DNA of 64,000 nt from Phlyctochytrium arcticum. Lineage: Eukaryota > Chytridiomycota > Chytridiomycetes > Chytridiales > Chytridiaceae. Shown here piece after piece: positions 22,151 to 46,892 of the stretch (its first letter is position 1; the number at the start of each line of letters is the position of its first letter). Both the position numbers and the translations under genes were made by a program. The DNA lies in assembly GCA_025602905.1 (NCBI GenBank), contig JAHLKI010000002.1, positions 434,001 through 498,000 on the forward strand, given 5' to 3'. The notes under the pieces were generated by a model. That model saw nothing but the letters and a program-made list of their open reading frames with translations, did no database searches and had not been told where the DNA came from.

Positions 22151-22722
22151 CCTCAGCGCCTATTTGGATTTCCGCATCTTCGTATGGCCGTACCGCAACC
22201 GGCGCAACAGGGGCTTTTTGAAATGCACTGAAGTACCGTGTCCCGATGTCTCGACCGCCCTATCGTGCGCTCTCGGTTTTCCTTGGCCCGAGCAACCGAT
22301 AGAATGAATAAACCGCCATTCCTCCAAGTGTGCACCCATAAACGTCTTTGCTCCGCATGACACAATGAATCTTGACCCGGCCATGATCGTTCATTTTGGA
22401 CTGGCGACCAGTGATGCCTAGAATGTAGCAAGGTGTTGTTTGGCATCAGCTGGTTCCTGCTCTCTCAGCCATACGTCAGGGTGCTGCAATTTTCGCAGTT
22501 TTTCCGGCCAGAGTCCTGATTTGGTGAAGGAATTGACCAATTTCCCTGTTAGCGCAGACGATTGGTTTGATGTGTCCGTAGTCCAAAATGTCTTCTCACG
22601 CTCGATCCGCTCCCTCTTGTCGCGCTCCTCACGCTCGATTTTGCGATAAGGTTGAACAAATGCAAATAGCAACCTACAGCCTGGATCTGTGGTTATACTA
22701 GGTGCATTCGCTTTCGGAGCTC
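22151..22722. other. mobile-element-derived sequence between the Fanzor patch and the palindrome
   Basis: Several overlapping minus-strand frames (22153-22446, 22418-22783) are open but are not recognisable. Base composition resembles the adjacent Fanzor/Helitron patch. It is probably more of the same decayed transposon, perhaps the Fanzor N-terminus. Confidence 0.35.
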
Positions 22723-22790
22723 TGCCACGGTGCATATTGACACTGACCACCCACCCGGGTGGGTGGTCAGTGTCAATATGCACCGTGGCA
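22723..22790. repeat. perfect 68-bp palindrome at the left edge of the viral element
   Basis: Positions 22723-22756 are the exact reverse complement of 22757-22790 with no spacer; the centre reads CCCACCC|GGGTGGG. Each arm contains ACGGTGCATAT, which also occurs in the palindrome at 46822-46892. It lies exactly where transposon patchwork gives way to AT-rich viral sequence. Confidence 0.95.
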
Positions 22791-23054
22791 CTGGTTGGTG
22801 TCTATATAGGGATTGAATAGCTGCATGCAGTTTAATGATATAGTTTAATGATATAGTTTAAAATTGACACGTTTTTGAACCGTGTCAAGCGCAGATCAGG
22901 CCTGTATTCGAAGATCTATCGTTAAGATCTCGCCCGTGTCAGAAGCTCCCTATATAGATACAAATTATACTGATCTGATCTAAGATCGTGGCAACTATCT
23001 ATCAATAGGATTCTGCCACGATCCGAGCGGCCACATACTCAATCGACGCTAACT
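22791..23054. other. left non-coding end of the viral element with short repeats
   Basis: A 13-bp unit (AGTTTAATGATAT) is repeated 2.5 times at 22829-22860. Short inverted pairs follow: TCTATATAGGG with CCCTATATAGA, TTGACACG with CGTGTCAA, and ATCGTGGCA with TGCCACGAT. Such repeats are common at viral or transposon ends and origins, but no function is shown. Confidence 0.6.
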
Positions 23055-23399
23055 CTAATCTTCTATTACTATCACTTCTGACTCGATGACGTCATCCGCC
23101 GCTGCATCTTCCATCGTCACGTTTCTTGTCCAGATTTCCGTTAGTGTCAGGTATGAATCGCGAATATCCATCGGTAATGCCTTCACATCGACGCGGCTTT
23201 GTTTCCTTATGTTGAAAGCTAGTTTCTTTGATATTCCGCCGTCCTTCACTGATAATGAAGTTATATTCTTCTTCTTCATCTCTTGCTTGATATATTCTAA
23301 AGCTGCGGCGTGCTTCTTGACGACTCTATTCGCCGCATCGTATTCTGCTGATATGTCTAGGTTGATAAACTCCAATACTCGCTCCTCCAATCGACTCAT
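23055..23399 (-). CDS. small viral protein of unknown function (114 aa)
   Basis: The ORF starts at ATG 23399 and encodes a mostly helical, charged protein of 114 residues. It begins MSRLEERVLEFINLDISAEYD and has a lysine-rich middle (QEMKKKN) and an acidic C-terminus. I recognise no domain. A TATA-like GTATATAAAG lies about 65 bp upstream on the minus strand (near 23470), which supports a real promoter. It is the leftmost gene of the element and reads outward. Confidence 0.6.
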   Translation of the reverse strand: MSRLEERVLEFINLDISAEYDAANRVVKKHAAALEYIKQEMKKKNITSLSVKDGGISKKLAFNIRKQSRVDVKALPMDIRDSYLTLTEIWTRNVTMEDAAADDVIESEVIVIED

Positions 23400-23841
23400 T
23401 GCTCTTTGATGCTATTTGGCGCTCTTGATTCTAACTGAGGATATCTGAGGCAGGTTCGTCGCTTTATATACTCGTGATTGTATCGATACCTTTTCTTTGT
23501 ATGAATAGGAAAGAACCAATTGAATCTCTTGCCGCTTATTCGCTCCTAAGGACCCATGCTACATGTCGCTACTTGTCGCTACACTTTTAGCAAAAAGTCG
23601 GAAAATTACCACAAACGTAAAGTACACTTAAACGTTTATTACGTTTGTGGAAAAATCACGACTTTTTCAAATTGCTGAATATGATGAAGTGTGTGAAAGT
23701 GTGATTAGATGACCCTCACCGCATCAAAACGCAACGGGAATGAAATATTCACTTTTCAGGATCCATCCCTATCATCGAGATACGGATACCTCTTATTGAT
23801 TCTTTAGCTATTCTATAATTGATTCTTTATGATTCGGGCAT
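23400..23841. other. non-coding gap with an imperfect inverted repeat
   Basis: This 442-bp gap holds a hairpin-forming pair: 23592-23620 against 23639-23667, with 12 bp and 8 bp perfect blocks around a mismatched middle and an 18-nt loop. The word CTACTTGTCGCTACA-like repeat of GTCGCTAC occurs near 23565. Otherwise nothing is recognised. Confidence 0.6.
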
Positions 23842-24297
23842 TTAAAAAATACGCAACTCTCTACCTCCTAACTTGATAATGATTTCATCTTTCTCTTCGT
23901 GAAGAAGTAGTTTTATATATTCTGATGGCGGTAATATAAGCATATTCAAGAATATCTGTTTGGGTACTGCAAGTTTGTCTCCGATAAAGAAACTGACTTT
24001 TAAGTGTCGCTCATTAAGAATGAATACTGGAAACAAATTAGATCTGTAATCAACACCTTTTTTTCTAAGGTTTTCTAACGGCACTCGAAATGTTTCCAAT
24101 TGATGATCCAATCTTATATATTCCAAGACAACATCGATATTCTTCAAATCAGTTTCATTCAAGCCATCTAGATACAGAGATGAAAAGACTGCGTTTTCTG
24201 CTATAGAGACGACATGAAATATTCCGTCACTATCAGGTTCTATTCTCTTTAATGCGATATCTCCCATGTCAAATAACAACATTTTCTTGTTTAACAT
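23842..24297 (-). CDS. viral protein of unknown function (151 aa)
   Basis: The frame starts at ATG 24297 and encodes 151 residues with alternating hydrophobic strands, for example LRKKGVDYRSNLFPVF and VSFFIGDKLAVPKQIF, ending in GGRELRIF. The strand-rich pattern could be a small jelly-roll or structural protein, but I cannot assign it to a family. A TATA-like AAATATAAAAAG lies upstream on the minus strand (near 24375). It sits between an unknown gene and the tRNA-like sequence, next to the capsid gene. Confidence 0.6.
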   Translation of the reverse strand: MLNKKMLLFDMGDIALKRIEPDSDGIFHVVSIAENAVFSSLYLDGLNETDLKNIDVVLEYIRLDHQLETFRVPLENLRKKGVDYRSNLFPVFILNERHLKVSFFIGDKLAVPKQIFLNMLILPPSEYIKLLLHEEKDEIIIKLGGRELRIF

Positions 24298-24396
24298 TCT
24301 TCATGTTTTTAAAACTTGGATTGCAAACGCAAACGCACCATGTATCATACATTGCATTATTTGAAGCTTTTTATATTTCAAAGTCTGTTATTTTCG

Positions 24397-24470
24397 GCCG
24401 GCAGGGAGTCGAACCCTGCATCGGGAATGCGATGAAGAAACCTTATGATAACCTTTACACTACAGCCGGC
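24397..24470 (-). tRNA. tRNA-like sequence, non-canonical (possible degenerate tRNA)
   Basis: The minus strand has GCCGGC at both ends, a perfect A box (TAGTGTAAAGG, 24452-24462) and a perfect B box (GGTTCGACTCC, 24405-24415). Total length is 74 nt, normal for an intron-less tRNA. The T stem pairs well. However, the acceptor pairs only over five or six bases and no standard 5-bp anticodon stem with a 7-nt loop forms, so I cannot assign an anticodon. It may be a decayed tRNA or another Pol III transcript. It lies between two viral genes. Confidence 0.5.
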
Positions 24471-24517
24471 TTTTATTTCTTATCTTTATGTTTGTTTTTT
24501 AATATTCAATTTCTTGT

Positions 24518-25762
24518 CTAGATCACATCGACTAGTGTGCTAATTGATAGGGTAACGTTTTCAGAATATTGGAATTCCATGCGACAGTTTGTAGAAGGCT
24601 GTTGTCCTGCTTCGTGGATAGTAGTGATTTCCATAATACTGTCAGTATTAACAAATGACAAGGCCGCACTAGAAGATTCATCTATGCTCTGATATGAGAA
24701 ACCTGCGCTAAAGTCCTTGTTCTGATAGTCAGACAGTGAGGGTAAATCCATTTCACCCACTGCGGACAGGTAGTTGCCTTTAATCTGCGAAATGAGCAGT
24801 GTTTCTGGATTGGCAGGACCGTTGAGGAAACCAGTTGTACCATTTGGCGTGACAAGGTTTCCGATTTGGATGAACCACTCTTTCAAGCCCTTACTAGACG
24901 AAATTTCATTCTTGTCAAGTGCAGGATTTGCTAATAGGTCTTCATCAACAAAAGAAAAGTCAAAGGCTTTTAAACTCCGGACACCGTTCATGTGGATACG
25001 GTAAGTTTGACGAGTGGAACCGTTGCAAGCCAACTCTTGAGTGGAATATCTAGTGTAATCGTAGAACAGTTCCTTACCAGCCGCAATCGAACGCTGTACC
25101 GCCAATTGAAATTCGGGAGGGGGCTGAAATGTTGGTACCATAATACTAGTTTCACTGAATTTCACTTCATCAACAGTATTGTTTAAGAATACTAGAGCAG
25201 GATCGCGCAAGGTAATATAGTAATCTAGCGTTTGATTGGGGAGGGCCCACACATGAAACAAAGAGTCATTATCCGGGTGGTGTACACCGATTGGCATATG
25301 TGTAGAACATCCTGCCACACTGCTCGTTTCAAAAATATTTTTAACTCCATATCCAGATAATGACTTCAAGAATGTCTTTTGCGTCTTTGGTAGATACTTA
25401 TAGACAGTCTTGAGGTATTTAGGATAATTGTCGATTTTCTGCAATTCTTTGCTTCCGATACAGACTCGTACCGATTGAATCAAACCTTCCAGACCGATAC
25501 TGCTGTTGATGACCGTATTCCCTGAAACTGGTTGCCCATTCTTGAATACTTGTACTTTGAAATTCAACAGAAGATTCTGTAATTGAAGGGATCGAGATGC
25601 ATCGTGCAACGAGATTTTAATAGGTGCTGCTTGCCGGTTCTTGGACGTAAAAACATCTTGACCAATGGGATACCATTTATTGATTGATTCAAGGCGGGGA
25701 TTCGAATACGGCTGGGCAAAGCGATTAGAAGAAACCAACCAATTCTTAGGTACTTCTGCCAT
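24518..25762 (-). CDS. probable major capsid protein (double jelly-roll type)
   Basis: The ORF starts at ATG 25762 and encodes 414 residues. It is rich in beta-strand patterns, glycine/proline turns and aromatic residues, with stretches such as FHVWALPNQTLDYYITLRDP and SLKAFDFSFVDEDLLAN. There is no signal peptide or membrane segment. Its size, its position beside the penton-like and packaging genes, and the absence of any other large structural ORF make it the best capsid candidate. At 414 residues it is shorter than most Polinton or virophage capsids (about 550-650), so it may be a reduced form or a different jelly-roll protein. The call is inferred from context and composition, not from a diagnostic motif. 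Confidence 0.6.
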   Translation of the reverse strand: MAEVPKNWLVSSNRFAQPYSNPRLESINKWYPIGQDVFTSKNRQAAPIKISLHDASRSLQLQNLLLNFKVQVFKNGQPVSGNTVINSSIGLEGLIQSVRVCIGSKELQKIDNYPKYLKTVYKYLPKTQKTFLKSLSGYGVKNIFETSSVAGCSTHMPIGVHHPDNDSLFHVWALPNQTLDYYITLRDPALVFLNNTVDEVKFSETSIMVPTFQPPPEFQLAVQRSIAAGKELFYDYTRYSTQELACNGSTRQTYRIHMNGVRSLKAFDFSFVDEDLLANPALDKNEISSSKGLKEWFIQIGNLVTPNGTTGFLNGPANPETLLISQIKGNYLSAVGEMDLPSLSDYQNKDFSAGFSYQSIDESSSAALSFVNTDSIMEITTIHEAGQQPSTNCRMEFQYSENVTLSISTLVDVI

Positions 25763-25809
25763 GATTGATGCTGTGGTTGTTTACTATATGAATAAAAAAT
25801 AAAAAACAC

Positions 25810-26271
25810 TTATCCGAATATTCCTCCAAATTCATCATTTGAATATTGTGGAACAGGTGTTGCTTTTCGTGTAGCAACTGCTTTTTTTGGAACAACAGCC
25901 TTCTTTTTGGTATTCGATGTTGAAGAACGTTCCGCTTTTTTACGCGCTCTTTCTTCTTTCTTTTGTTGCTTTTCTTGTCTCTTTTTCTCTTCTAATTCAT
26001 TGACCAAATCATAGGCATCTTGAACACGTTTTCTTTCTTCTTGTATTCGTTTCTCTTCATCTCGTTTCTGCTGCATCTCTCTTAATTGTCGAGTTCGTTC
26101 TTTCTGCGCTTTGATCATATTCGCAGTCTGTTTCTTTTTCTTCACTTCTTGAATTGGTTCAGGTGGAGGTGAAGGTTCTTGTTCAACGGGTTGTTCAATT
26201 TCTTGTTCAACTTCTTCTTCAATGGGTTGCTCAGGTTCGATTGGTAGCTCATTTTCGTTATGGTCCGACAT
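25810..26271 (-). CDS. highly charged coiled-coil viral protein (153 aa)
   Basis: The ORF starts at ATG 26271. The first 45 residues are Glu/Pro-rich, with repeated EQP blocks. The centre is a long predicted coiled coil of alternating Lys, Arg, Glu and Gln (REMQQKRDEEKRIQEERKR). The C-terminal part is Lys-rich and could bind nucleic acid. It stands 47 bp from the capsid gene and 29 bp from the penton-like gene in the same direction, so it is probably co-expressed with structural genes. A core or scaffold role is possible but not shown. Confidence 0.6.
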   Translation of the reverse strand: MSDHNENELPIEPEQPIEEEVEQEIEQPVEQEPSPPPEPIQEVKKKKQTANMIKAQKERTRQLREMQQKRDEEKRIQEERKRVQDAYDLVNELEEKKRQEKQQKKEERARKKAERSSTSNTKKKAVVPKKAVATRKATPVPQYSNDEFGGIFG

Positions 26272-26300
26272 TGTTACTTGTATTCTACAAAAAAAATAAT

Positions 26301-27020
26301 TTATTGAATATCGCTTATGTCGTCAGCTATCAAGAAACGAATACTCAATGGTGAATTCAGGGCAAGTTCTTCACCTGTTTGTGAATCAATTAGATGAAAC
26401 TCCACTTTACTAATTGTATCATTACAAGGCAACCATTCACTATCATTGACGAAAGTGATGACATCACCGAATGAATCGGGGATGATTGTTGCAATGACGG
26501 TGCTAGCCGTATCATTGTAATCAGATAGATATCGAACACTTGGAACATTGATATTCGATGTCAAAAGAATCGGATATGAACCAGATAAATTGACACTATT
26601 TTTAAATGTGACGGTCTTTGCCATAGGCGATGCAGTTCGATTCGAATACCCAGAGACAGAATATGCGGTAGTCCCTTCCATACCTGGCAATATTTGAAAG
26701 TCTTTGTCTACAGCTGTTATAGTAATCTTTCGAGTAATTTGATTGTAACTTGACGAATATGCTTGACTCCCAGCTGTAGTCATCGAAGCGGCAACAGCTT
26801 GTGGGTAGTTTGCAACGGTATAGTTGCCATGAGGAATACTGGCTTTAATAGTGTTGGTATTCCCGTCTTCTTTGAAAGCGAATACGTTATTGGTACTGTT
26901 GATCAAATCGTAATCTTGAATAAAACTCACTGACAATATTTTCACAAATGAAACGTTACGCTTCTCTATATTGAACGAGCGACGCTTTAGAGAACAATAG
27001 GTCCACTCATTGATGGTCAT
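26301..27020 (-). CDS. probable penton/minor capsid protein
   Basis: The ORF starts at ATG 27020 and encodes 239 residues. The N-terminal third has IPHGNYTVANYPQAVAASM, a pattern recurrent in penton or minor capsid proteins of Polinton-like viruses and relatives (a Gly-Asn-Tyr turn followed by a helix). A strand-rich region follows, KITITAVDKDFQIL, then NSPLSIRFLIADD near the C-terminus, fitting a single jelly-roll. It lies next to the capsid-side genes and shares a 33-bp divergent promoter with the packaging ATPase. Assignment is by pattern and neighbourhood. Confidence 0.55.
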   Translation of the reverse strand: MTINEWTYCSLKRRSFNIEKRNVSFVKILSVSFIQDYDLINSTNNVFAFKEDGNTNTIKASIPHGNYTVANYPQAVAASMTTAGSQAYSSSYNQITRKITITAVDKDFQILPGMEGTTAYSVSGYSNRTASPMAKTVTFKNSVNLSGSYPILLTSNINVPSVRYLSDYNDTASTVIATIIPDSFGDVITFVNDSEWLPCNDTISKVEFHLIDSQTGEELALNSPLSIRFLIADDISDIQ

Positions 27021-27053
27021 GATGTCGTTTGTTATTATCTAAGTAATAAATAA

Positions 27054-27764
27054 ATGACGACGTACAAGGTAAAGCCCATATTCAATCCGAAAGCTATTGA
27101 AAGAGATCCTCGCGTCCCTGAGCCGTTACCGTCACATCCCATATGCACCACATTATGCGCTCCACGCAAATCTGGTAAGACGGGTTTGGTCATGGGTTTG
27201 ATTGAAGATTGTTATGCTGATAGATTCGACAGGACTATCATAATGTCAGATACCGTTCGTTATGACACGTGTATTCAACAATTTGCCAAGACAACGAAGC
27301 ATAAAAATGTTTATTTCAATGACGAAGTCTCAAATGATAGTATTTCAGCCATCGTGAAATACCAACAAGAGAATGATTGTGAGGATCGAATACTACTCTT
27401 CATAGATGACGCGGCGGATGGTGCTAGATCAAAAGAATTAGCGAAACAGCTTGACCTTTTATATACAAAGGGTCGACACTACAATATCAGTATTATAGTA
27501 TGTTGTCAATCCATTAAATCCCAACTAAGTGGTAAGCAAAAGGGTTGCACTACAGAATGGATTATATTCAAAAATAATAGGAAGGATTTTGAGACGTTAT
27601 CGGAGACGCTCGTGACCTCTCACGCGAGTAAAAAAGAAGTGCTTGAATACTTGATTGACTGTACTAGGACACCGTATTCATTTTGTCTCATTGATCTTTC
27701 AAAGAATACAGCTAGAGATATATACAAGTATTGCGAGGGTAACGTATTCAAAGACTACTTTTAG
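27054..27764 (+). CDS. A32/FtsK-HerA type DNA-packaging ATPase
   Basis: The protein has 236 residues, the normal size for packaging ATPases of small dsDNA viruses. It contains a Walker A motif in CAPRKSGKT (residues about 32-40) and a Walker B motif in ILLFIDDAADGA (about 122-133). A conserved glutamine, CCQSIKSQLS, follows about 40 residues later, as in the A32 family. It would drive genome translocation into preformed capsids. It starts at ATG 27054, 33 bp from the penton-like gene on the other strand, and its stop overlaps the next minus-strand gene by four bases. No damage is visible. Confidence 0.85.
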   Translation: MTTYKVKPIFNPKAIERDPRVPEPLPSHPICTTLCAPRKSGKTGLVMGLIEDCYADRFDRTIIMSDTVRYDTCIQQFAKTTKHKNVYFNDEVSNDSISAIVKYQQENDCEDRILLFIDDAADGARSKELAKQLDLLYTKGRHYNISIIVCCQSIKSQLSGKQKGCTTEWIIFKNNRKDFETLSETLVTSHASKKEVLEYLIDCTRTPYSFCLIDLSKNTARDIYKYCEGNVFKDYF

Positions 27765-28072
27765 TCACCGCTTAAATTAGTACTTAGTCGATCCACAAAC
27801 TTGTCACTTGAGGCATGAAGATCACTTAGTTTCTTGATACCTTTTCCCGTCTTGTTGGTTAGGTCATCCGCTGTTGATCGAATTTTCTCGTTGAAAAGTT
27901 CTGGGGACTCTTGAATTGACTTATTCACTCCTTGTATCAATTTAGAACCTTTATTAGCAAATCCGACAGCACTTGCAGCGAAACCGCGTGCACTTTTTAA
28001 ATGTGATGGAGCGTTATTCCAAAAGGTTTTGAGATTCTGCCTTCCCTTGGTTAAGAACTTGCCGAAGCTCAT
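27761..28072 (-). CDS. small basic viral protein, possible minor virion component (103 aa)
   Basis: I start it at ATG 28072 because the longer frame would need a TTG codon. The protein is basic and amphipathic: it opens MSFGKFLTKGRQNLKTFW, then has an Ala/Gly-rich helix (FAASAVGFANKGSKLIQGVN). Short proteins with such helices are found as minor virion or membrane-active proteins in Polinton-like viruses, but this one carries no diagnostic motif. Its stop overlaps the ATPase stop in a tail-to-tail arrangement. Confidence 0.5.
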   Translation of the reverse strand: MSFGKFLTKGRQNLKTFWNNAPSHLKSARGFAASAVGFANKGSKLIQGVNKSIQESPELFNEKIRSTADDLTNKTGKGIKKLSDLHASSDKFVDRLSTNLSGD

Positions 28073-28160
28073 ATTCGTAGAATGGGAGAGTTTACCTATA
28101 ACAGAGTAAAATTTTAAATAAGATTTCAATTAGATAAAGAAAGATACAGAGCGCCTAAAC

Positions 28161-29717
28161 ATGGTGTACAGAACGAATACGTTAGAGTTCATGGGTGTCA
28201 ATGATACACCCGGCCAAGTGAATGCTCAAGACAATCTCATTACGAATATTGTCGATGGGTATAAGTATGATTCATTCGGACGACCTGGGAAAGTCGTCAA
28301 GACATGGAATCACCTCACACAAAGATTGGATAATGGAAAATACAGTACCGTGGAACGTATGATGAACAACAATGTTGCAAAACCGTCACTGTCTGTTACG
28401 AATATGGCCAACACAGTCTATGCAACCAAGGCTTATAAGAATTATGAAGAATATAAGAACATTGAGTTGTCTTATAAAAAACAAAAAGACTTTTTAGATT
28501 CACTTATTCCAGAGAAATCACTTTCAGGTACTAATCGTTCCTTCATGCCAATTCCATCTGTCAATGGAGTCGTACCGCATTACAGCGATGAAGTAGCTGG
28601 TATGAGCGGAATTAGATTTGAGCCGCCTCGTAATATTAGGGAATTCCAACGACCGCCGCAAGGAACTGATTCAGTACCGCCTCCCATGGTTGAAACATTA
28701 CAAACTGTTATTCGACAAGACAATGAAACGGGACAAACATTCGCATCAGACGCAGCGGGAACCTTGAATCCAAACCCGATTCGTATTGATACAGAAAGAG
28801 AAAGAGTAGTTGAGTTGCCGGGAGGGTTTCCTCGAATACCGTCACCTGAGCCGGTACCAATTCCTTCGCCAATTGAACCGGAACCACCATCTCCAATCCC
28901 TACACCAGTTCCTCCCATCATCTTTGTGGATCCTGTTGATGTTGAGCCCACTAGGCAAGATATTGTACCTAATTACCGTTCACCATTTGTTGATCGACCG
29001 AATCGTACTCCTAATCGAGTGAATCCCATTCCGCCTCGGAGGCCGAGAAGATTGGTTCAAATGAATCCATCAGTAGTTGTTCATGGAGGAGAGGAAGTTG
29101 TACGTCCACGTCCTGTAACTCCGGATAGCCCTTCAGGCATAATCGGTGAAGAGTTAGAAGCTCGACGTGTGGAACATATTCCATCAAATGTTTCTCGTAT
29201 TAATCAACAGTCACCAACTAGAATAACAAGAATTGCAAGTTCCGTTCCAGCTCGTCGCGTGCAAGTAGATGTTGCAGATAGTCAAACTGCCCAAGTCATT
29301 CCACACGTTGATCCTACAGCGGTCTCTACATTGAATCAACCATCTGGTATTCAGCCTCTAGCAGACTTGAACCCGCGAAGAACTAGACGATTAGAAGACG
29401 AGTTGGTACAAGGACCTGCTAAACGCCGCAAGAAGAATACTAGACTCGAACCACCAGGTTTTGTGAATATTGAACGAACACCAAGTGCACGTCCTGCTGA
29501 ATTTTCACAACCGTTTCAATTCAATCCGAGACCAGTTGTAGTAGTACCACCGGCACCAACAGTTGTGTCAACACGAAGAATTGCACCAGTTCGACGAAAC
29601 CCTGGTGAACCCACTGGTACGGCCATCTTGAACCCTCGAAGAGCAGCAAGACAGCAGGAGCAATACGATAGAGACCTTATTGCGCCAGCTGCGGCGAAAC
29701 GTCAAAGACGGCGATAA
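28161..29717 (+). CDS. proline/arginine-rich viral protein of unknown function (518 aa)
   Basis: The ORF starts at ATG 28161. The first 150 residues look folded and helical (KAYKNYEEYKNIELSYKKQK). The remainder is disordered: a Pro-rich block of PSPEP/PIPSP words, then Arg-rich and Val-rich segments, ending AAAKRQRRR, a possible nuclear localisation signal. I do not recognise a family. The same protein is encoded, broken, in the second element copy (45930-46835), where ITRIASSVPARRV and the C-terminal KRQRR are kept. Conservation between two diverged copies argues that it is a real, selected gene. It is followed 24 bp later by the integrase. Confidence 0.75.
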   Translation: MVYRTNTLEFMGVNDTPGQVNAQDNLITNIVDGYKYDSFGRPGKVVKTWNHLTQRLDNGKYSTVERMMNNNVAKPSLSVTNMANTVYATKAYKNYEEYKNIELSYKKQKDFLDSLIPEKSLSGTNRSFMPIPSVNGVVPHYSDEVAGMSGIRFEPPRNIREFQRPPQGTDSVPPPMVETLQTVIRQDNETGQTFASDAAGTLNPNPIRIDTERERVVELPGGFPRIPSPEPVPIPSPIEPEPPSPIPTPVPPIIFVDPVDVEPTRQDIVPNYRSPFVDRPNRTPNRVNPIPPRRPRRLVQMNPSVVVHGGEEVVRPRPVTPDSPSGIIGEELEARRVEHIPSNVSRINQQSPTRITRIASSVPARRVQVDVADSQTAQVIPHVDPTAVSTLNQPSGIQPLADLNPRRTRRLEDELVQGPAKRRKKNTRLEPPGFVNIERTPSARPAEFSQPFQFNPRPVVVVPPAPTVVSTRRIAPVRRNPGEPTGTAILNPRRAARQQEQYDRDLIAPAAAKRQRRR

Positions 29718-29741
29718 ATGATTCTCATGAATTAATAGTAA

Positions 29742-30995
29742 ATGGAAGAACCTGTCATTAAATCTAGGTCATTACAATATTCGAAAGAGCTAACAGATCT
29801 AGATGCGCAACGATTAAAAGACTTTTATTACACCGACAAAAATCTATATGGTCGGGACCGCTTGTATTATTCTTATCGTCAACGCTATCCTGACTCTAAG
29901 ATCAGTCAAAGAGCTGTATTGAAATTCTTGAAAAAGCAAGACATATGGCAGCGTACCACTCGTCCGGTCGGATCAAAAGGATCTATCAGACCGATCCTGT
30001 CCTCGAAGCCAGGGACTTTTCAAATCGATACAGTGAATATGAGATCACATTCGTATAATGGATTTAATTATATTGTGAATTTAATCGACATCTTTAGTAA
30101 AAAATTGTATTCAAAAGCTCTTAAGGCGAATACTCAGCAAGAAGTTCGAGACTTTCTCGATGATGTGTTAGAAGACGGTGTCGAGATGGTCTATGTGAAC
30201 TCGGATAACGGATCTGAGTTCCAGAATTTGGTGCAGACGTTCGCAGAAGAGAATGGAATACAGTGGACTTTCAGCCGTCCTGGCAGACCGCAGTCTTCAT
30301 CGCATGTAGAAAGGGTCAATGGCTCACTTAAAAACATATTGTTTAAAAGTATTCAACTTGGAGATCCAGACTGGGTTAGCGCTCTTCCCAAAATTGTCCA
30401 GAATCTGAACACTAGCGCTATTCATTTTGGTAGCGGGAACATGACGACTCAACAGATATTAGATAATCCTGAAGCAGCTTATCAGAAACAATTAGTAGCA
30501 AGGACGAAAGGCAGAGGCACGAAATTGTTACCGGATTTGGCTATTGGGGACAAGGTGAGGAAGTTAACGCAGATTTCTAAGGTCGAGAAAAGGAGTAAAA
30601 AGGGTTATTTCAGCAAAGAGGTTTTTACTATTAGCAAAATTATCAAATCCACACGTCCCTCGTATCAAGATGCTTACAAGATTCAGAACTCGTTAGGGAA
30701 TGATATGTTTGGATTATATCCTGCGTACATGTTAAGAAAAGTAAATGAAGTAGAAAATCCTTTGCCTGAACCTGCAAATGTGAATACTGAAACTGAAGAA
30801 GAAACTGAAGAAGATGATGGTATTGAACGTTACGAAGTAGAAGCTATTTTGGACAAGAAAATTACACGACGAAAAATATTCTATTTAATACAATGGAAAG
30901 GTTATGAAGAACAGACGTGGGAACCAAAAGAGAATCTCGTCTTGGATAATTTCACGGACGAAATAGAGGATTTCGAGAGAGAATATAATCGCTAA
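29742..30995 (+). CDS. retroviral-type (rve) integrase with C-terminal chromodomain
   Basis: This is a 417-residue DDE integrase of the Polinton/Maverick and Ty3 type, expected to insert viral DNA into chromosomes. An N-terminal helix-turn-helix region (KISQRAVLKFLKKQDIW) precedes the catalytic core. The core has the first Asp in FQIDTVNM, the second in YVNSDNGSEFQ, and the Glu in SSSHVERVNGSLKN. A GPY/F-like module (LLPDLAIGDKVRKL) follows. The C-terminus is a chromodomain with YLIQWKGYEEQTWEPKENL, which can steer insertion to methylated histones. The gene is intact. Start ATG 29742; the stop overlaps the tyrosine recombinase stop by four bases. A second copy lies at 44742-45914. Confidence 0.9.
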   Translation: MEEPVIKSRSLQYSKELTDLDAQRLKDFYYTDKNLYGRDRLYYSYRQRYPDSKISQRAVLKFLKKQDIWQRTTRPVGSKGSIRPILSSKPGTFQIDTVNMRSHSYNGFNYIVNLIDIFSKKLYSKALKANTQQEVRDFLDDVLEDGVEMVYVNSDNGSEFQNLVQTFAEENGIQWTFSRPGRPQSSSHVERVNGSLKNILFKSIQLGDPDWVSALPKIVQNLNTSAIHFGSGNMTTQQILDNPEAAYQKQLVARTKGRGTKLLPDLAIGDKVRKLTQISKVEKRSKKGYFSKEVFTISKIIKSTRPSYQDAYKIQNSLGNDMFGLYPAYMLRKVNEVENPLPEPANVNTETEEETEEDDGIERYEVEAILDKKITRRKIFYLIQWKGYEEQTWEPKENLVLDNFTDEIEDFEREYNR

Positions 30996-32352
30996 TTAGT
31001 GCGTATCTTCCTTTTCTTCTCATTTTTGATCTTTAGTTTGATTCTTTCAATGTCCAAATCTGCAGGTAAGCGACCACTATCCCTCGCGTATTCCTGCAGA
31101 GTTCCACTAGGCTGAAGTCGTTCGTATTCATCCCACAATTCGTGGAGAACTATTTTTTCTGCTGGCGTCCAATAGCGCCTAGGTGGTTCCGCTGGTGAAG
31201 AAACTACGGGATCCGTATTCTCTTCAACGACTTCCATAGGAACCGTATTCTCTTCAACTTCAACAGGTTGAAACGTATAGTTCAAAGTTTGCAGAGCAAC
31301 TGAGTGTCCCATTTGACAGGCGAGGCGTTTCTTTTCTGGAAGATACAAAAGGGTACCGGATGCTACGCGATGTGAAACATACAACTTGCGCAAATCTGTA
31401 CTAGTAAGTGGTTTCCCAACAACACTATCGAATATTTTCGCAACATGTCGTGACCAATTCGAAGCCCAACCGCTAAATATCATGTCATCATCTTCACCGA
31501 ATCTGTTGCGGTATGTCTCAAATAGCTTCTTTTCGAATGGTGAAAGTTTCATGTGGAATCTACCGTAGACATCAGAAGTCTTGTATTCCTTCAAAACAAG
31601 CACACCACGGTCACCATCGTAATAATTGGCATCTTATATTCTAGGCTGCGACGCGGAGGGTGATTCACGTAGATGCATAGAATCAATACTGTACGGAATT
31701 CCTCTTTTGTGCAATGTTCGAGATCAACACTGGCAATACTAATAAGACACTTATCTTCCAAAGTTTCCCATGGGATATACTTTTCTCGTTGGAATACTTC
31801 AGAAGATTTTTGCTCTTCGAGAATCAGCTTGATCTGACCCTTGTAATAATTCGAATAATATGGGAACAAGGCTTGCAATTCCTCGTAGTTTTCAATTCTT
31901 TCCTTTTCATCAGTATTCAATGTTTTCAACAAGAGCGACATTCCATTGCATAAATTCTTTAGTTGTTGAATATTTCTTTTGATTATCTGACTGTCATCTT
32001 CAGTATTAAGAATGTTTTCCAAGTGGTCATCTAATTTATTCTGAATACGACCCTCGTCAAGAATATAATCAGTATTCTCCAAGTCGAAAAAGATCGATGC
32101 ATTCTTGGCGCATCGCAAGGCATTCTTGTATGTCTTGCCTTTTCGCTTCTCTTCTGGATCAGGGTCGTTTTTGGCTCGATTGAATACCATCTCGATAAAC
32201 TCAAGTGTAAACTGCAACGGTCCGGTGCTCTGGTCTTCGACTTCCGCTTCCATCTGAAGTGGTTCTGCTTCAATCGGTGCACCCCCGTTACTCGATCGAT
32301 CTACCTCTGATGTTACACTTGCTTTCGCTTTTTCAACCGCCAAATCACTCAT
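30992..32352 (-). pseudogene. tyrosine recombinase, broken by a frameshift near 31600
   Basis: Two overlapping minus-strand frames together match one viral-type tyrosine recombinase. The upstream part (32352 to about 31610) has helical N-terminal sequence and ends with ILCIYVNHPPRRSLEY, containing the first catalytic Arg. The downstream part (about 31605-30992) has VLVLKEYKTSDVYG (the Lys beta-hairpin), then TSTDLRKLYVSHR and CQMGHSVALQTLNY, which supply the second Arg, the His residues and the nucleophilic Tyr. A one-base shift near 31600-31615 separates them, so no complete enzyme can be made without frameshifting. A copia element begins immediately upstream of its ATG. The C-terminal 90 residues are Glu/Pro-rich with a Lys/Arg tail. 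Confidence 0.8.
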
Positions 32353-32353
32353 C

Positions 32354-34000
32354 TCGGACGATGAAGATGACCCCAAGACCCTGGCAGAGGCTCAGCAATC
32401 CAAGTACTGGCCTCAATGGCGTGAGGCGATCAAAACCGAATTCGATTCTCTGACCAAGCGTGGCGTCTTTGGTCCTCCTACCTCACCATCCGGAATTAAC
32501 ACCATCGTTGGCAACCGATGGGTGTTTGTACGGAAACGCAATGCACAAGGCTTTGTGACGCGCTTCAAGGCGCGAATTGTGGCTCAAGGATTTACGCAAC
32601 AGTATGGCTTCGACTATCGCGACACATATTCTCCGGTTATGGATCTCACAACCTACCGGTTTCTTCTCAGCTTCGCTGTTCAACATCATCTTCATCTTGC
32701 TTTGATGGATGTTGTGACCGCCTATCTCTATGGTGATCTATCCGAAACTATCCACATGCGTCTTCCCGACGGCTATCGTGATTTCTTCCCAGTACCATCA
32801 GGACTGGATACCCCAGTTATCAAACTGCGACGGTCGCTCTATGGCCTAAAGCAATCAGGACGCGAATGGTATCGAAGGATCGCTACCTTCCTTATCGGAC
32901 GCGGATTCATCAATGACAAGATCGCTCCATGCGTGTTTATCAAAACACAAGGTCGCGAAGTCTGCATCATTGCCGTCTATGTCGACGATCTCAACATCAT
33001 GGGCACCTCCGCTGCCATCGCATCAGCGAAAACCACTCTGATCTCAGAGTTCGAGATGAAAGACCTCGGTGAGACTTCATTTTGCATTGGTCTTCAGATC
33101 ATTCACTTGCCTACAGGTATCTTTGTCACCCAATCTACTTACATTGCCAGGATCCTCAATAAATTCGGCATGTCCAACGCTCATCCTCTGCCGACTCCTT
33201 TGTTGCATCGACAACTCGAACCTGAGCAAGATATCTACGGCCCCATTCGTGAAGGGGAGACACCGTTGGGACCAGAATACCCATATCTATCAGCCATCGG
33301 CGCTCTCACTTATTTGGCAACCTGCACTCGCCCTGACATATCATTTGCAGTCTCACTCCTGGCACGCAGTTCCAAAGCACCTACCAAACGCCATTGGCAA
33401 GGCATTAAGCATATCCTCAGATATCTTAAAGGTACATTGGACTTTGGACTACTCTACACCAATCAATCATATCCACGAGATTACGCTTTTACTCCCGCTG
33501 CATCTGACGGACGGATACCAACCATTCATGATACCCTCGGCTACGCTGATTCGGGATATCTCTCACACATGACGAAAGGCAAATCTCAATCTGGCTATGT
33601 CTTCATCCGAAACGGCGCCGCTATCTCATGGCGTTCTACTCTCACAACCATGACACCGTCGAGCACGAATCACGCCGAAATCATTGCTCTTCATGAAGCC
33701 GCCCGCGAAGCTGTCTGGTTACGTCTTATGCAACAACATATATCTACGGCATCAAATCGGCCTATTCCTGATACTCCAACCGTGATATACGAAGACAACC
33801 AAGCTGCTATTGCGCAAATTCGATCTGGCTACATCAAGGGCGATCGGATCAAGCATATCGCTCCAAAGTTCTTCAGCACATCAGACATGAACGGGATCGA
33901 AATCGACATCGTCAATATACCCGGTGTTCATAACCTCGCAGACATTTTCACCAAAACGCTGCATGCTCCGGCACACACGCCTATCTCCGGACTGGACTAG
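32354..34000 (+). pseudogene. copia reverse transcriptase-RNase H fragment
   Basis: The frame is open to 34000 without stops. It begins inside the linker before RT (DPKTLAEAQQSKYWPQW), continues with NRWVFVRKR, IVAQGFTQQYGFDY, DVVTAYLYG and the catalytic YVDDLNIMG. The RNase H part has GYADSGY, SSTNHAEIIALHEAARE and YEDNQAAIAQ. It lacks gag, protease and integrase, so it is not autonomous, but the absence of stops suggests recent insertion. It is the young component of this locus. Confidence 0.9.
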
Positions 34001-34285
34001 GCCTCCATAGCTTGCAATCACTCCGCGAGCGCTTGACTCCATCCGCTCCTTGATCAAGGGGAGTCTCTTCAACTCATATATCATCATACTCGACATCGAC
34101 ACTCGCGATCTGCTCTTTTTCCTCCTGAACTTTTATCCCACTGGGTTTTCACAGGAGGGCTCTTTTTAATGAGGGATCATCATCATCATCATCATCGTCA
34201 TCGAGTTTACCACTACCACACATATCCTATTCACCGACTCTCACTTCCCAATTCAGTTTCGTCGTCCCGCTTTGACGAAGGGGAG

Positions 34286-34512
34286 TGTTGTGAAACCATG
34301 GCCGCTGGTTCATCAGTACCGGCCATCTGAGGCGTCACCGCTGGACGGTCACATACAAGGTGACCGCAACTCTACTGTACTCAGTGTTTCATATAGATGT
34401 ACATAGTGTTCGTAGTCCTTCCTCACTCCATTGGTATATAAGCTAGCATTACTTCGTCTTCCTCATGATGATCACAATAATACATACTCTGCTCACACAT
34501 AGTATTATAACA
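34286..34512 (+). repeat. 3' LTR of the copia element (227 bp)
   Basis: The LTR begins TGTTGTGAAAC just after a purine tract (GAAGGGGAG, likely the polypurine primer) and ends TATAACA, giving TG...CA termini. It contains a TATA-like GTATATAAG near 34433. AT-rich viral sequence resumes directly after it. Confidence 0.8.
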
Positions 34513-35178
34513 CTTTTGGCTACCTCTTCTCCTTTTACATTTTTTTTACATACATATTATCTAATTCTCTCTTTAAAAAAATAAAAATATATAATAATGT
34601 TGAAGAAGTAAGGTATCCAAAAGGTAGCCAAAAGTTAGCCAAGTGAATTTCGTCCAGGGAACAAGAAGACATGATTCCCTGCGCGAAAAATACAAAAGGT
34701 AGCCAAGTAGCCAAAATAAATAGAATAAAAAACAGAATTTAAAAAAAAATCAAAAAAAATTCTCAAAAATTAAACTCCTCTCCAATATTGGGAGGTTTTG
34801 AGGCCCTGAAAAAGCTACCTTTTCAAAAAACGCAACGGGACTACTATCAAAAAGTTCCCTGCACGAAAAAGTCAAAGCTACCTTATTAGATACTCGAGAG
34901 ATACTCTATTGCACACTTTGTGCCTTATCACGCCGATCGATTGTAATGTACTTTGACCAAACAGAATGCTCGAAATTACACAATTTTGTAACGGTCCGAC
35001 ATATTTGGTTTCATTGCCAAAACGTTTAACAGTTGCCTCATATATAAGTTTAGATTGCATGTCTTTATGTATTACTATATATGATATAATTTTCATTGTG
35101 TGCGTTTCAACAATATCAATAGTTTTTTTTTCTATATAAGAGGTAAAGAATTCCACATTTGTGTATATATCACCAACC
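34513..35178. other. AT-rich viral non-coding region with GGTAGCC words
   Basis: The stretch is very A/T-rich. The word GGTAGCC or its complement GGCTACC occurs several times (near 34516, 34620, 34638, 34696, 34815 and 34870 in full or partial form). It lies between the divergent tyrosine recombinase and PrimPol-helicase genes and could hold their promoters or an origin. No gene is convincing. Confidence 0.5.
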
Positions 35179-37644
35179 ATGGTTCAATCAGAGTTATTCA
35201 AAATCGCCAAAAAGATGCATGCTACCAACATGGCCTTCGTTCCGATTCCAGCTAGTCTAAAACGTAAACGTCCGATTGGTCATTGGTCTCCCGGTAAATA
35301 TTCATTTGCGCAAAATTTTCAGAAACGTGAAAAATTAGAGAGCGAATGCAACCTTGGATTGATTATAACCTCACAATACATGGTTCTTGATATAGACAAT
35401 AAGACACCCGCTACTGCATCAAAGACCAAGAACTATTCCGAAAAAACCGGTGTAGAGGACTTTAATACATTGATTGCAGAAAACGAAAATTTACCAGCAA
35501 CACTGACTGTTACCACCCCAAGCGGCGGCAGACACTACTATTTCAAAATGACTGGATGCGAAGAAGAAGCTCAGTTAAAAAATTGGACTTGTTGCATGTC
35601 ATTGAACAACAAGTTGATTGCAGTTGATGTTAGAAAGCAGGGTGGGTACGTGATGTGTCCACCTAGTATCAAAGGTGTTACCTCATATACTTGGGACGAC
35701 GCTGTAGACCAATACCGGGTCGAAATGGCACCATTGCCGCGATGGATCCTTCGAAATATTCTATCTACGATGAAAAAAGACGAGAAACATTTGAAGAGTC
35801 AAGAATTTACATCCAGTCCGGTAGACAATGCCGTGCTTACAAGTGCCGACGTTCAATTGTTTATGGAAAGTGAATACTACTTGACTCAGTTTCAAATCGA
35901 CAAGACACCCAATCGCGACAATATATACAGGATAACTTCCACAGCACCATATATGTGTAAAGTATGCGGGCGACTTCACAGTAAGAATACGAATCATCCT
36001 TTTCTTGTGCGAAATAATGGGACATTGAGATTTGTATGTCGATCGGGAACAGGTAATAACGTGGTCCTAGACAAGAATTACATGACGATGTGGGATTCAT
36101 TCGAAGATAAACTGTCGAAAAGCTTTGTCGAAAAAGGAGACTGTTCCAATCAGGCGATTTCGAAAATCCTATATGCTATGACAAAAGATGTTGTATATCC
36201 CAATAATATTCACAATACCTGGACACATTACAATCCTGAAATCGGAATTTGGCAAGAACAACATTATTCATATATTCTACGACCATTCTTTGACAAATTG
36301 GCAACCAGTTTTGCAAAACTACATTACATATGTAGCCAGTTGAGTAAAGAGAATGCAGAGAGTGACCCTGAAACAGCAGAACTGTGGAAGTATCGTACGA
36401 ATGTCGCCAAACTGGCGGAGGCTGACATGAAGAAGACTAGGGAGAAGAAGGATAACATCTCTGCCCTATTTGAACTCAATAGCGACAGACGTATAATTGA
36501 GAAGTTCAACAGTAAAGCAGGGAATCTACATTGTTCAAACGGTGTTTATGACCTTGACAAGGGTGAGTGGAGAGATGCGAAGCCAGAAGACTTTTCGACA
36601 ATGTCGACACATTTGAAATACGTAAAATACAGTGATCATCCACAAGAAAAGAAAGACATCATAAACAAATTTCTGGATGACTTTACTCTGGGAAGATCAA
36701 AAATGAAGAGTTACTTGTTAAAAGCATTGGCAAGTGGATTAGATCGGTACAGTCCCGATCAGCTGTTTTTCTTTTTCCACGGGACTGGATGAAATGGAAA
36801 ATCATTACTTGCTATGTTACTTTCGATAGTATTCGGAGATTACTCCGCGCCAATTTCAAGTGCGCTTGTTAGCAAACCTAATATCAACGCTCAAAGTGCG
36901 TCGCCTGCTTTGGTCGCATTGAAGCATATTCGAAGTGGTATTCTTACCGAGTTGGAGCACAAAAGTCTTTATACTGAATTTTTAAAGATGATTGTGTGCG
37001 GCGACAAAACGACAGCACGGCAATTGTATGAAGGTGGAATGCAACCCATCACATTGGCGGTAAAACCATTCATTATGTTAAACAAACTTCCCAATGTGCT
37101 CGATACGACCTATGGATTTTGGCGCAAAATGGTGGTGTTCCCTTGTGAAGCTAGATTCAAGGCGGTTGTAGACCCGACTCAGTCGAACGAAAAAAACATC
37201 ATTGCTGGTTTCGATAAAGAATTGCTAGCGTGTGCAGATACTTTCCTTGCATTGTTAATTGATGTGTATCAGAATGAGTACAAAAAAGAAGGGATAAAAG
37301 AAGATGTTCAGCCTGACATTATCAAGGAAACTACCAAGAACTATCAACTATCACAGAATATTGCACTTGCGTTTGAACAGAATATGTTAGAAAAAACCGA
37401 CAAAAAAGATGTTTTGACTATCACAGAGATGAATGAAGAGTTCCGCAAGTACTGCATGAATGCAGGTGTTCAATACTCCCAGCAGTTAGTGGGTCAAGTA
37501 CATGATTGGATGGATACCCTGTCTCCACCGACCAACAAGACACGACAGATGAAGAAGAATGGTCAAAATGTAAAAGGATGGAAGGGGTACCGCATTAAAA
37601 CAACAATGGTTGACATATCAGCCGACAACTCCGATAGTGAGTAA
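35179..37644 (+). pseudogene. PrimPol-SF3 helicase (D5-like replication protein) with an in-frame TGA in Walker A
   Basis: This is the element's replication protein. The N-terminal part (residues about 1-200) is an archaeo-eukaryotic PrimPol domain with VLDIDNK, TPSGGRHYYF and DVRKQGGYVMCPPS. A D5_N-like middle follows. The C-terminal part is an SF3 helicase. Its Walker A begins at FFHGTG, but the next codon (36790-36792) is TGA, after which the same frame continues NGKSLLAML. Later motifs include FIMLNKLPNV and FWRKMVVFPCEARF. There is one reading frame of 822 codons with a single stop. The ATG at 35179 is preferred to an upstream GTG. Either this is a point nonsense mutation or the stop is read through; I favour mutation. 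Such proteins replace protein-primed PolB in many virophage-like elements. Confidence 0.88.
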
Positions 37645-37715
37645 ATTAGACTGTAACATATTTCTGTATTCTATTTTATCTTCGTCTTCATATTCTAATA
37701 AATGTTTTGAAACTT

Positions 37716-37952
37716 TTACTTTTTCGCCCTGCTGCGGGGCTTGATATACTTCTTTCGTAGTTCACCTAGCTTCATCATACTTTTCAAGTGGTTGACCAGT
37801 TTGTCATTTACTTGCTCAATCTCTGAATTTTTCAATTCTTCAATAAACTCCTCTGTTACTTTAGAACCACCCGGTGATACTTGTACTTGTTCAAAGAGAA
37901 AGACAATTTTCTCCTCAATTGAATCTGACTGAAAAAGTTGAGAATTGTTCAT
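37716..37952 (-). CDS. small viral protein of unknown function (78 aa)
   Basis: The ORF starts at ATG 37952. It encodes a helical, acidic then basic protein that ends YIKPRSRAKK. I see no domain. It lies tail-to-tail with the helicase gene and head-to-head with the 168-residue gene, with promoter-like AT-rich sequence between. The compact fit between neighbours supports a real gene. Confidence 0.55.
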   Translation of the reverse strand: MNNSQLFQSDSIEEKIVFLFEQVQVSPGGSKVTEEFIEELKNSEIEQVNDKLVNHLKSMMKLGELRKKYIKPRSRAKK

Positions 37953-37990
37953 TTTATCTTATTAATGTAAAAAGAAAAGAGTCCAAAAAC

Positions 37991-38045
37991 CGAGACGCAT
38001 TATGTATCTATATATAAATAAACTTTGTTTCTAAAATGTAAAACC
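37991..38045 (+). promoter_or_regulatory. repeated viral promoter, copy 1
   Basis: The segment holds GAGACGCATTATGTATC, a TATA-like ATATATAAATAAAC and TTTGTTTCTAAAATGTAA just before the start ATG. Nearly the same string precedes the next plus-strand gene at 38557-38605. Confidence 0.6.
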
Positions 38046-38552
38046 ATGGCGGAAGAGAATAACAACATTGAAGCTATCCGTGACAACGAAAACGACAACA
38101 AAGTCATTACACGCGCAAAATTTATTCGATTGAAGAGTATTAGTTCGTGGTGCAATACCACTATCCATTTTACCTATGGTAATATCAACCGACTAGAGGA
38201 GTATGATGATGAGGATGATATATTTCAATATAGTTTAATATTGCAAGGATTGGTGGACACATTCCAGAGTATTTCGAGGTTTCAATATACAGATAACATG
38301 GATAGAATGATGGAGATGTTCAACGAGGCATGTTTCACAGCAGAACAGTTGGAGAAGCTTGTCAGAAGTGAATATAAAATAATTCAAACCATTATGGACC
38401 CAGAAGATGTACGTGGATCCAGATACCACCGGCTGATTCAGACAAATCATTACCAGCTGTTGAGATTTCTTGAGATTATCATAAATGTAGTACGTAGTTT
38501 AACCATTAACCCCATTGTTTTACCTCTTTCTCCCGATTCTGATTCTGAATAA
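38046..38552 (+). CDS. viral protein of unknown function (168 aa)
   Basis: I choose ATG 38046 (MAEENNN) because the longer frame would start at a TTG inside the promoter. The protein is helical throughout, with an acidic patch (EEYDDEDDIFQY), a run of hydrophobic heptads and an acidic C-terminus. No family is recognised. It is preceded by the repeated promoter and followed by its second copy, which suggests coordinated expression with the small gene downstream. Confidence 0.6.
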   Translation: MAEENNNIEAIRDNENDNKVITRAKFIRLKSISSWCNTTIHFTYGNINRLEEYDDEDDIFQYSLILQGLVDTFQSISRFQYTDNMDRMMEMFNEACFTAEQLEKLVRSEYKIIQTIMDPEDVRGSRYHRLIQTNHYQLLRFLEIIINVVRSLTINPIVLPLSPDSDSE

Positions 38553-38605
38553 TTGAGACGCATTTGTATCATGTATGTAAATAAACTTGTTTCTAAAATG
38601 TAACA
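38553..38605 (+). promoter_or_regulatory. repeated viral promoter, copy 2
   Basis: GAGACGCATTTGTATCATG, then GTAAATAAAC and TTGTTTCTAAAATGTAAC, align with the promoter at 37991-38045 in order and spacing. The ATG of a 29-codon ORF follows. Confidence 0.6.
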
Positions 38606-38695
38606 ATGGAACCTGTAAAGACCCAACCAGAAACGAAACCACAGAAACCAGAAAAGCCACAACAACCAAAAACTAAAATAGTGACGTTTGATTAA
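38606..38695 (+). CDS. very small Lys/Pro/Gln-rich ORF (29 aa)
   Basis: A 29-codon ORF stands directly behind the second copy of the repeated promoter. It is made of EKP and QKP words and ends KTKIVTFD. It may be a real micropeptide, a degenerate gene or a leader. Support comes from the promoter, not from homology. Confidence 0.35.
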   Translation: MEPVKTQPETKPQKPEKPQQPKTKIVTFD

Positions 38696-38731
38696 GGTTG
38701 ATTAGAATTTGTGTATTATAAGTAAATAGTG

Positions 38732-38893
38732 ATGTCAGGCATTAACAGCAGAAATGCCTCGGGTATGAAAACCCTTGATAATACCATCATTTCAAATAGC
38801 TTCATAAGCGGTATATTAAAGGGTGACGAATACTCTAGTATAGATGTCGCAAAACTATCGAATACTAATGGCGAAATGAAGGTAAACCTATAG
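38732..38893 (+). CDS. last viral ORF, possibly truncated (53 aa)
   Basis: The ORF starts ATGTCAGGC and encodes 53 residues with KTLDNTIISNSFISG and DEYSSIDVAKLSN. The AT-rich viral composition ends at about its stop codon, so it may be the stump of a longer gene cut at the right edge of the element. Function unknown. Confidence 0.4.
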   Translation: MSGINSRNASGMKTLDNTIISNSFISGILKGDEYSSIDVAKLSNTNGEMKVNL

Positions 38894-46835: not shown

Positions 46836-46892
46836 ATAACCGCGTACTATGCGCCTTCAGCGCATAGTACGCGGTTATATGCACCGTTACAA
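46822..46892. repeat. 33-bp-arm palindrome at the edge of the second element copy
   Basis: 46822-46854 is the exact reverse complement of 46860-46892, with a 5-nt spacer (CTTCA). Each arm contains ACGGTGCATAT, also found in both arms of the 68-bp palindrome. Viral homology ends inside it. Confidence 0.95.

Follow-up and report, generated by a model that had tools for sequence, protein, structure and literature searches.

Palindromic ends in a family of integrated Polinton-like viruses of the chytrid Phlyctochytrium arcticum point to probable hairpin-end replication

The stretch of DNA analyzed here, called the window, is 64,000 nucleotides long and is C2:434001-498000 of the 31.5-Mb assembly of the chytrid fungus Phlyctochytrium arcticum (C-numbers are contigs of that assembly). 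It holds an island that is a truncated, partly broken copy in a multi-copy family of integrating Polinton-like viruses (PLVs). The copies of this family end in palindromes. From the sequences of these copies, the palindromes are probably explained by a hairpin-end replication cycle, in which a retroviral-type (rve) integrase inserts the opened ends.

The inverted repeat at 22723-22790 is 100% complementary and forms a perfect 68-bp palindrome at the element's left end, with 34-bp arms, no loop and TG...CA at its termini. The homology of other copies to the window copy starts at 22722-22723, the palindrome's first base. Folded as a single strand, the palindrome has an energy of -42.8 kcal/mol (z -14.5). 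Its 34-bp arm is the longest perfect inverted arm (loop of at most 5) in the window, and the maximum is 10 in 30 dinucleotide shuffles. An earlier sequence-only reading missed this palindrome and placed the left end at 22791, which is the first base past it; the true end is 22723.

The end type recurs through the genome. A pattern fixing eight bases per arm found 38 sites, and the reversed pattern used as the control found 0. Thirty of them are palindromes; of the other eight, seven are copies of a 61-bp repeat and one is a different site. Arm length in the 30 palindromic ends is 29-34 bp and tip length 0-5 nt, and there are 17 distinct arms; 29 ends are without arm mismatch and one has a single mismatch. 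Among the ends of the 34-bp-arm type (10 ends, 8 distinct), five of the 34 pairs vary, each of them in both arms and never in one alone. The covariation score is 0.126 versus 0.048 for shuffled arms (0/500), and four of five measures are above the shuffles.

A second lineage, with capsids 44-47% identical to the window's, has other palindromes at its ends, perfect ones 100-104 bp long at C23 and C17. Their arms are 52 bp at C23, a count that includes two flanking bases pairing by chance, and 51 bp at C17. The pattern for this palindrome gave 37 sites genome-wide and 0 with its control. By eye, 19 of 21 inspected sites are perfect (four of them over the first 80 letters) and the imperfect ones are C4:1108571 and C4:1158962, while a script found no arm mismatch in seven distinct palindromes. 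The two ends of the C23 element of this lineage differ inside, and each is self-complementary over the letters inspected. The self-complementary ends that characterize hairpin replicons are present, then, in the integrated copies.

The palindromes, which other copies carry at both ends, are bordered by a 5-bp target site duplication (TSD) in all eight readable pairs, seven of which are independent. The duplications are GACAT, CCGTT, GTTAC, GTCAG, GTAAC, GACAT and TGCCG, the last read twice at a duplicated locus whose flanks are the same. As a control, flanks were paired across elements, and 2 of 54 pairs matched, because C15 and C41 share GACAT. Two further candidate pairs were unusable, as one has a right end without a palindrome and the other is cut inside it. 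The two ends of the C18 element carry different palindromes and one common duplication. Since the duplications flank whole palindromes, the element was inserted as a linear molecule ending in the palindrome, with TG outermost. Retroviral-type integrases prefer TG in the outermost place.

The tips of the palindromes occur in flipped forms. Nineteen of the 30 ends have an asymmetric tip and 15 of these have a comparable partner; the four without one are C1:1324339, C2:480823 and an end each in C20 and C29. A 5-nt tip is found in both orientations (seven ends, five independent), and among the 1-nt tips four are A and four T. The right terminal inverted repeats (TIRs) of the C23 and C45:20147 copies agree over ~1,065 bp, with an identity of 100% over 854 bp and of 98.1% over 212 columns. 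Their four non-identical columns equal the number that arises from the reverse-complemented 5-nt tip alone. Tip inversion without any other change is the expected product of copying through a fold-back end, and a five-base flip is not easily made by substitution. Flip/flop tips, another character of hairpin replicons, are found with this coverage of 15 of the 19 asymmetric ends.

In the proposed cycle, the free linear genome would end in fold-back hairpins, as judged from the integrated copies. The virus's own PrimPol-D5 helicase, not a protein-primed polymerase, would prime the replication, and copying would proceed round the hairpin. Opening and filling of the end would invert the tip and template each arm on the other. 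The rve integrase would then take the opened TG...CA ends, insert the whole linear molecule and make the 5-bp duplication. The tyrosine recombinase (YR) would not be needed for insertion and may resolve palindromic junctions or excise copies, which is the least certain step. Protein priming is not evident, because none of the 14 genome matches to the protein-primed PolB (pPolB) lies inside the eight elements delimited by palindromes and duplications; the island proteins scanned have none either.

Alternatively, the palindromes may be dimeric recognition sites of the integrase or the recombinase at ordinary TIR ends. Host-chromosome events (cruciform processing, template switching and gene conversion) would then keep the arms alike and flip the tips with no viral hairpin cycle. 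The integrase-type insertion is clear from the 5-bp TSD and TG...CA, and the evidence comes wholly from integrated copies, both of which suit this alternative. A binding site would, however, conserve its sequence, whereas here the interior varies and the self-complementarity is kept through the 17 arms. The palindrome also sits where homology ends in lineage 1 and at the element ends in lineage 2, and the flipped TIR pair differs in nothing else over ~1 kb. We regard recognition sites as an unlikely explanation.

Several points weigh against the hairpin cycle. No free virus DNA or virion has been seen, and chromosomal cruciform or template-switch events can also homogenize or flip palindromes. 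The tips may have been inverted within the chromosome by a cruciform, the 1-nt tip differences could be substitutions, and the flip/flop case rests on the five independent ends with the 5-nt tip. The further pair types in the arms do not exceed those in the shuffles (5 vs 5.6). The TSDs were read for the eight delimited elements and none for lineage 2, and the right ends C1:1323975 and C3:1387068 are oriented by the TSD only, for want of an adjoining canonical TIR. Only five of the eight elements contain PrimPol matches (C1, C3 and C4 are without), which lowers our confidence slightly. No nickase or resolvase was identified. The YR is not shown to be needed, because the four lineage-2 elements carry palindromes without a YR match. 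Lastly, head-to-head dimers joined at the end palindrome were predicted for inverted pairs and were not found: the centers of inverted copies, at 19643.5 in C40, 13129.5 in C10, 373790.5 and 397920 in C9 and 122467 in C18, are not end palindromes. The C4 inverted pair is two separate back-to-back elements, each with its own palindrome.

The inverted duplications in C40, C10, C9 and C18 are themselves long, carry virus genes and have equal match scores. The 61-bp repeat is non-palindromic and has the GGTGCATA...TATGCACC motif in common with the virus ends; it is perhaps a miniature element. Its sites are C2:707990, C2:1495512, C3:71733, C9:383641, C19:533653, C25:130108 and C73:14747.

The hairpin cycle would bear on an end problem. 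Primase-helicase PLVs lack the protein-primed polymerase by which Polintons meet it, and to our knowledge no solution of theirs has been described. Hairpins at the termini, with flip/flop tips, would provide one. Poxviruses and some other large DNA viruses share hairpin ends and use related D5-type helicases, and the palindromes thereby bear on the evolution of linear-genome replication among double-jelly-roll viruses. A broader suggestion, that the chytrid PLVs form a separate replication class of small eukaryotic DNA viruses with hairpin ends, PrimPol-D5, a YR telomere resolvase and a retroviral-type integrase using opened hairpins, is put forward as a tentative possibility. It would place end copying like that of poxviruses or parvoviruses inside the Polinton/PLV assemblage, where protein priming is the way known to us. 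In practice, the palindromes are a simple marker for locating element ends.

The features of the window copy and its surroundings are as follows, with open reading frames abbreviated to ORFs.

22723..22790, no strand: terminal palindrome, the element's outer end
22723..23514, no strand: part of the TIR, left copy only with the right one lost; 93% identical to the end of the C45 copy
23055..23411, minus: TIR-borne ORF of 118 aa; relatives at both ends of the C15, C4, C23 and C1 elements
23842..24300, minus: protein of 151-152 aa, conserved among copies
24518..25762, minus: major capsid protein (predicted double jelly-roll), 414 aa, by AlphaFold2 model and Foldseek
25810..26271, minus: charged coiled-coil-like protein, 153 aa, its nature read from sequence; conserved place beside the capsid gene
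26301..27020, minus: penton (minor capsid) candidate, 239 aa, by position and conservation; no Pfam match
27054..27764, plus: A32-type packaging ATPase (PF04665, 6.7e-8)
27761..28072, minus: small protein of 103 aa, conserved among copies
28161..29717, plus: Pro/Arg-rich protein of 518 aa, conserved among copies
29742..30995, plus: rve integrase with C-terminal chromodomain (PF00665, 4.5e-14; PF00385, 3.2e-10)
30992..32391, minus: probable tyrosine recombinase, broken into two frames (30992-31633 and 31591-32391)
32258..34000, plus: copia-type reverse transcriptase fragment, a non-viral insertion (PF07727, 2.9e-37 for 32639-34000)
35140..37644, plus: PrimPol with D5/SF3 helicase; in-frame stop within the Walker A motif in the window copy
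38022..38552, plus: conserved protein of 176 aa, 99% identical to the C1 copy
38726..38893, plus: probable start of a long fibre-like protein cut by truncation, with the MSGIN- start of the 1,782-aa ORF in C17 and C23
46822..46892, no strand: second terminal-type palindrome, solo, without a recognizable TIR on either side

The PrimPol and D5 domains lie in 35179-36792 (PF09250, 2.3e-20; D5_N, 7.5e-10), and the helicase end in 36793-37644 matches PHROG primases. The sequence-only reading had described an AT-rich island with a chromodomain rve integrase, an A32-type ATPase and a PrimPol-SF3 helicase, and each of these holds on the matches given. The GC content per kb is 0.36-0.45 over 23-39 kb except for the copia stretch (0.48-0.49), and outside the island it is mostly 0.45-0.53, with a lower level at 43-46 kb, the site of a second relic. 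This relic of another element is the palindrome at 46822..46892 together with an integrase remnant (77%) on the minus strand at 44940-45911.

The same genes recur elsewhere in the genome. Matches to the capsid protein number 61 (E up to 10, counting fragments). Nine of them, the window's own among these and one with a stop, cover all or almost all of its length at no less than 90%; further groups are near 52-54%, 44-47% and 25-28%. The ATPase has 52 matches, the recombinase 14 and the PrimPol 25. The integrase has 104 at E 1e-3, many of which, from the short or low-identity rows, seem to be retrotransposon integrases or chromodomains alone.

Both the C15 and the C23 copies read, with further ORFs interspersed, TIR ORF, ORF of ~1,700 aa or longer, PrimPol-helicase, recombinase, integrase, Pro/Arg-rich protein, small protein, ATPase, penton candidate, coiled-coil protein, capsid, small protein and TIR ORF. 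The window copy keeps this order as far as its truncation. Paired TIRs of 1.1-2.0 kb are present in the C15, C4 and C23 copies, and the end palindromes form the tips of the TIRs. Element length is mostly ~25-27 kb, and the eight spans read are 15.8-33.0 kb.

The window copy is a mosaic: 34993-38887 is 99.7% identical to a C1 copy, the left part is ~89-90% identical to the C45 and C15 copies, and the copia fragment lies between them. Such a make-up would suit a chance cluster of unrelated insertions. Against it, C15 and C23 show this gene order between TIR and PrimPol again, within elements that have palindromes and TSDs at their borders. It is not a chance pile-up because the integrase and the probable YR recur inside seven of the eight delimited elements (not C4), five of them with PrimPol, and the two belong together as had been proposed. 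The colinear copies already refute the chance cluster, and we give it practically no credence.

The copies have exchanged modules. The window PrimPol is 99% identical to that of a C1 copy whose capsid is 54% identical, while the window capsid is 98% identical to that of a C15 copy whose PrimPol is 60% identical. C1:1308257-1324039 and C3:1361088-1387132 are the same insertion with the same flanks and inner lengths of 15.8 and 26.0 kb, a segmental duplication followed by loss or gain. A long element protein has a weak match to an avian adenovirus fibre (L014:4735-9999, 9.3e-5; L030:2377-5013, 1.1e-7) and is possibly a fibre. The C23 element also carries a C5-type DNA methyltransferase as cargo (L022:540-1469, 3.7e-49), and a methyltransferase PHROG match of 4.4e-8 occurs in C15 (L015:2908-4134).

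The 414-aa protein is, by its predicted structure, the double-jelly-roll major capsid protein. The AlphaFold2 model, made from a 10-row alignment, has a pTM of 0.68 and a mean pLDDT of 64. Its best Foldseek match is the PBCV-1 capsid (E 1.5e-11), and the best 50 of 1190 rows, 143 of which have E at or below 0.001, are all double-jelly-roll capsid or scaffold proteins. The company includes the PBCV-1, iridovirus, Sputnik and PRD1 capsids and the poxvirus scaffold D13. This is the fold that the sequence-only reading had proposed to look for. By sequence, the capsid profile reached no capsid protein among solved structures, and Pfam Capsid_N is weakly matched by seven of the ten aligned members (best 7.5e-4).

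As to the class, the double-jelly-roll capsid and the FtsK/A32-type ATPase are those of a PLV. An element of ~15-40 kb bounded by TIRs is seen in the related copies, and the window copy has one end only. The rve integrase with its chromodomain, the A32 ATPase and the double-jelly-roll capsid are compatible also with a Polinton/Maverick or a virophage. The element has no pPolB, however, as a Polinton would, and neither a virophage-type capsid nor a cysteine protease was found: the capsid relatives of known source are chytrid proteins, and none of the 20 proteins scanned with Pfam is a convincing protease. Weak, sub-threshold peptidase-family matches lie inside the ATPase and the recombinase. 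We judge a Polinton/Maverick or virophage identity very improbable. Hence, of the earlier label of virophage or PLV, the endogenous PLV-type virus stands and the virophage does not.

Elsewhere in the genome, pPolB matches lie within ~10 kb of 25-28% capsid matches (C3:282466, C25:411495, C54:13338 and C7:987073), so Polinton-type and PrimPol-type PLVs appear to coexist. A pPolB match also adjoins a lineage-2 palindrome (C17:59661-60308 and C17:60589-60646).

The pairing of two integrases appears real because the rve integrase is its own protein of 417-423 aa in the copies read. Of the 14 recombinase matches, 13 (some fragmentary) lie next to an integrase match, and the exception is C3:475091. 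The YR is a single open frame of 478-492 aa in six other copies, and none was found open in a seventh, C1. The alignment of nine sequences left out C1 for this reason and C45:11154, which is nearly the same as C23. In all nine, R268/R269, K299, R363, H391 and Y400 are invariant, the R-K-R-H-Y set of catalytic residues of tyrosine recombinases. The structure model (mean pLDDT 70, pTM 0.46) has the helix-strand order expected for the recombinase fold. The distant homologue P0009 (305 aa, 26%) has its own best integrase match at E 0.035, and no recombinase match to the YR was found in Pfam, NCBIfam, PHROGs or PDB sequences. On these motifs, the homologue and the secondary-structure order of the model, the protein family of 30992..32391 is a probable tyrosine recombinase; the gene named in the sequence-only reading is there with its motifs conserved, and its identity is probable only.

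Protelomerases cut and seal hairpin ends in some phages and bacteria. Likewise, the YR may act as a telomere resolvase, cutting the palindromic junction and sealing hairpins, as a part of the hairpin cycle and not its replacement. Its match inside seven of the eight palindrome-ended elements and its invariant R-K-R-H-Y residues are consistent with this role. Three of the nine recombinases also have a Myb/SANT-like match at the C-terminus (best 7.4e-5, L026:230-1690, just under the Pfam cut-off). Nevertheless, the four lineage-2 elements and the lineage-1 C4 element have the palindromes with no YR match, and there is no sequence match to a solved recombinase. The resolvase role is therefore doubtful, if conceivable.

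Six relatives of the capsid were found outside this genome, among them chytrid proteins and a record that bears the name 'Powellomyces chytrid fungus MELD virus 5', whose hexon is 44% identical over 99%, a comparison made by the capsid protein only. PrimPol relatives occur in Gaertneriomyces, Nowakowskiella, Rhizophlyctis and Borealophlyctis, and contigs of 18.8, 22.7 and 24.9 kb encode PrimPols 43-46% identical. Scans of viral contigs with the ATPase and capsid alignments found no relatives. The PrimPol alignment gave 46 loci there, all N-terminal segments only at 22-38%, which we take for distant phage-type primases.

Integrated PLVs of chytrids are known. Bellas and Sommaruga (2021) described one in Spizellomyces punctatus and a PLV group named after it (PMC7805220). 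One of the nearest relatives of the capsid (43-44%) is SPPG_02195, a protein of S. punctatus. A chitinase is reported for 52% of that group (PMC7805220), whereas none is among the 20 proteins scanned here. The main text of that paper has neither hairpin nor palindrom- as a term. Cryptophyte PLVs likewise have rve or YR integrases, TIRs, short TSDs and a mass expansion in one genome (PMC12220804), whereas here an rve integrase match without a reverse transcriptase lies beside the YR at 13 of 14 sites. A large protist survey excluded Fungi (PMC10120064).

Polintons/Mavericks share the rve integrase, ATPase, double-jelly-roll capsid, TIRs and short TSDs, and have a protein-primed PolB where the chytrid element has a PrimPol-D5 helicase instead. 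Poxviruses, parvoviruses and protelomerase phages, all of a different virus class, likewise have terminal palindromes and flip/flop tips, whereas the hairpins here are deduced from integrated copies. Among the matches listed in the open-licence literature and in the main texts searched, no report of hairpin or palindromic PLV ends was found, and the sole hairpin passage met concerns giant viruses. Hence, the sequence-only suggestion of a possibly undescribed lineage is upheld in part: chytrid PLVs are known, while the hairpin-type ends and the true double integrases were not found in print and appear new.

The right side of the window copy is damaged. Its homology to another copy ends at 38887 and the second TIR is absent, so 38893, formerly given as the right end, is not an element end and the border is a truncation. 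The window PrimPol-helicase is 99% identical to a copy with a single 834-aa open frame, and open frames for both the recombinase and the helicase exist in other copies. No direct repeat was found around the copia fragment in 31901-35200. Outside the left border, a DUF6570 match (5.3e-8) lies at 20302-21129. A GmrSD-type restriction-endonuclease-like gene at 39478-41581 adjoins the truncated border, with its C-terminal domain at 1.3e-15 and its N-terminal domain at 0.0014, below the cut-off.

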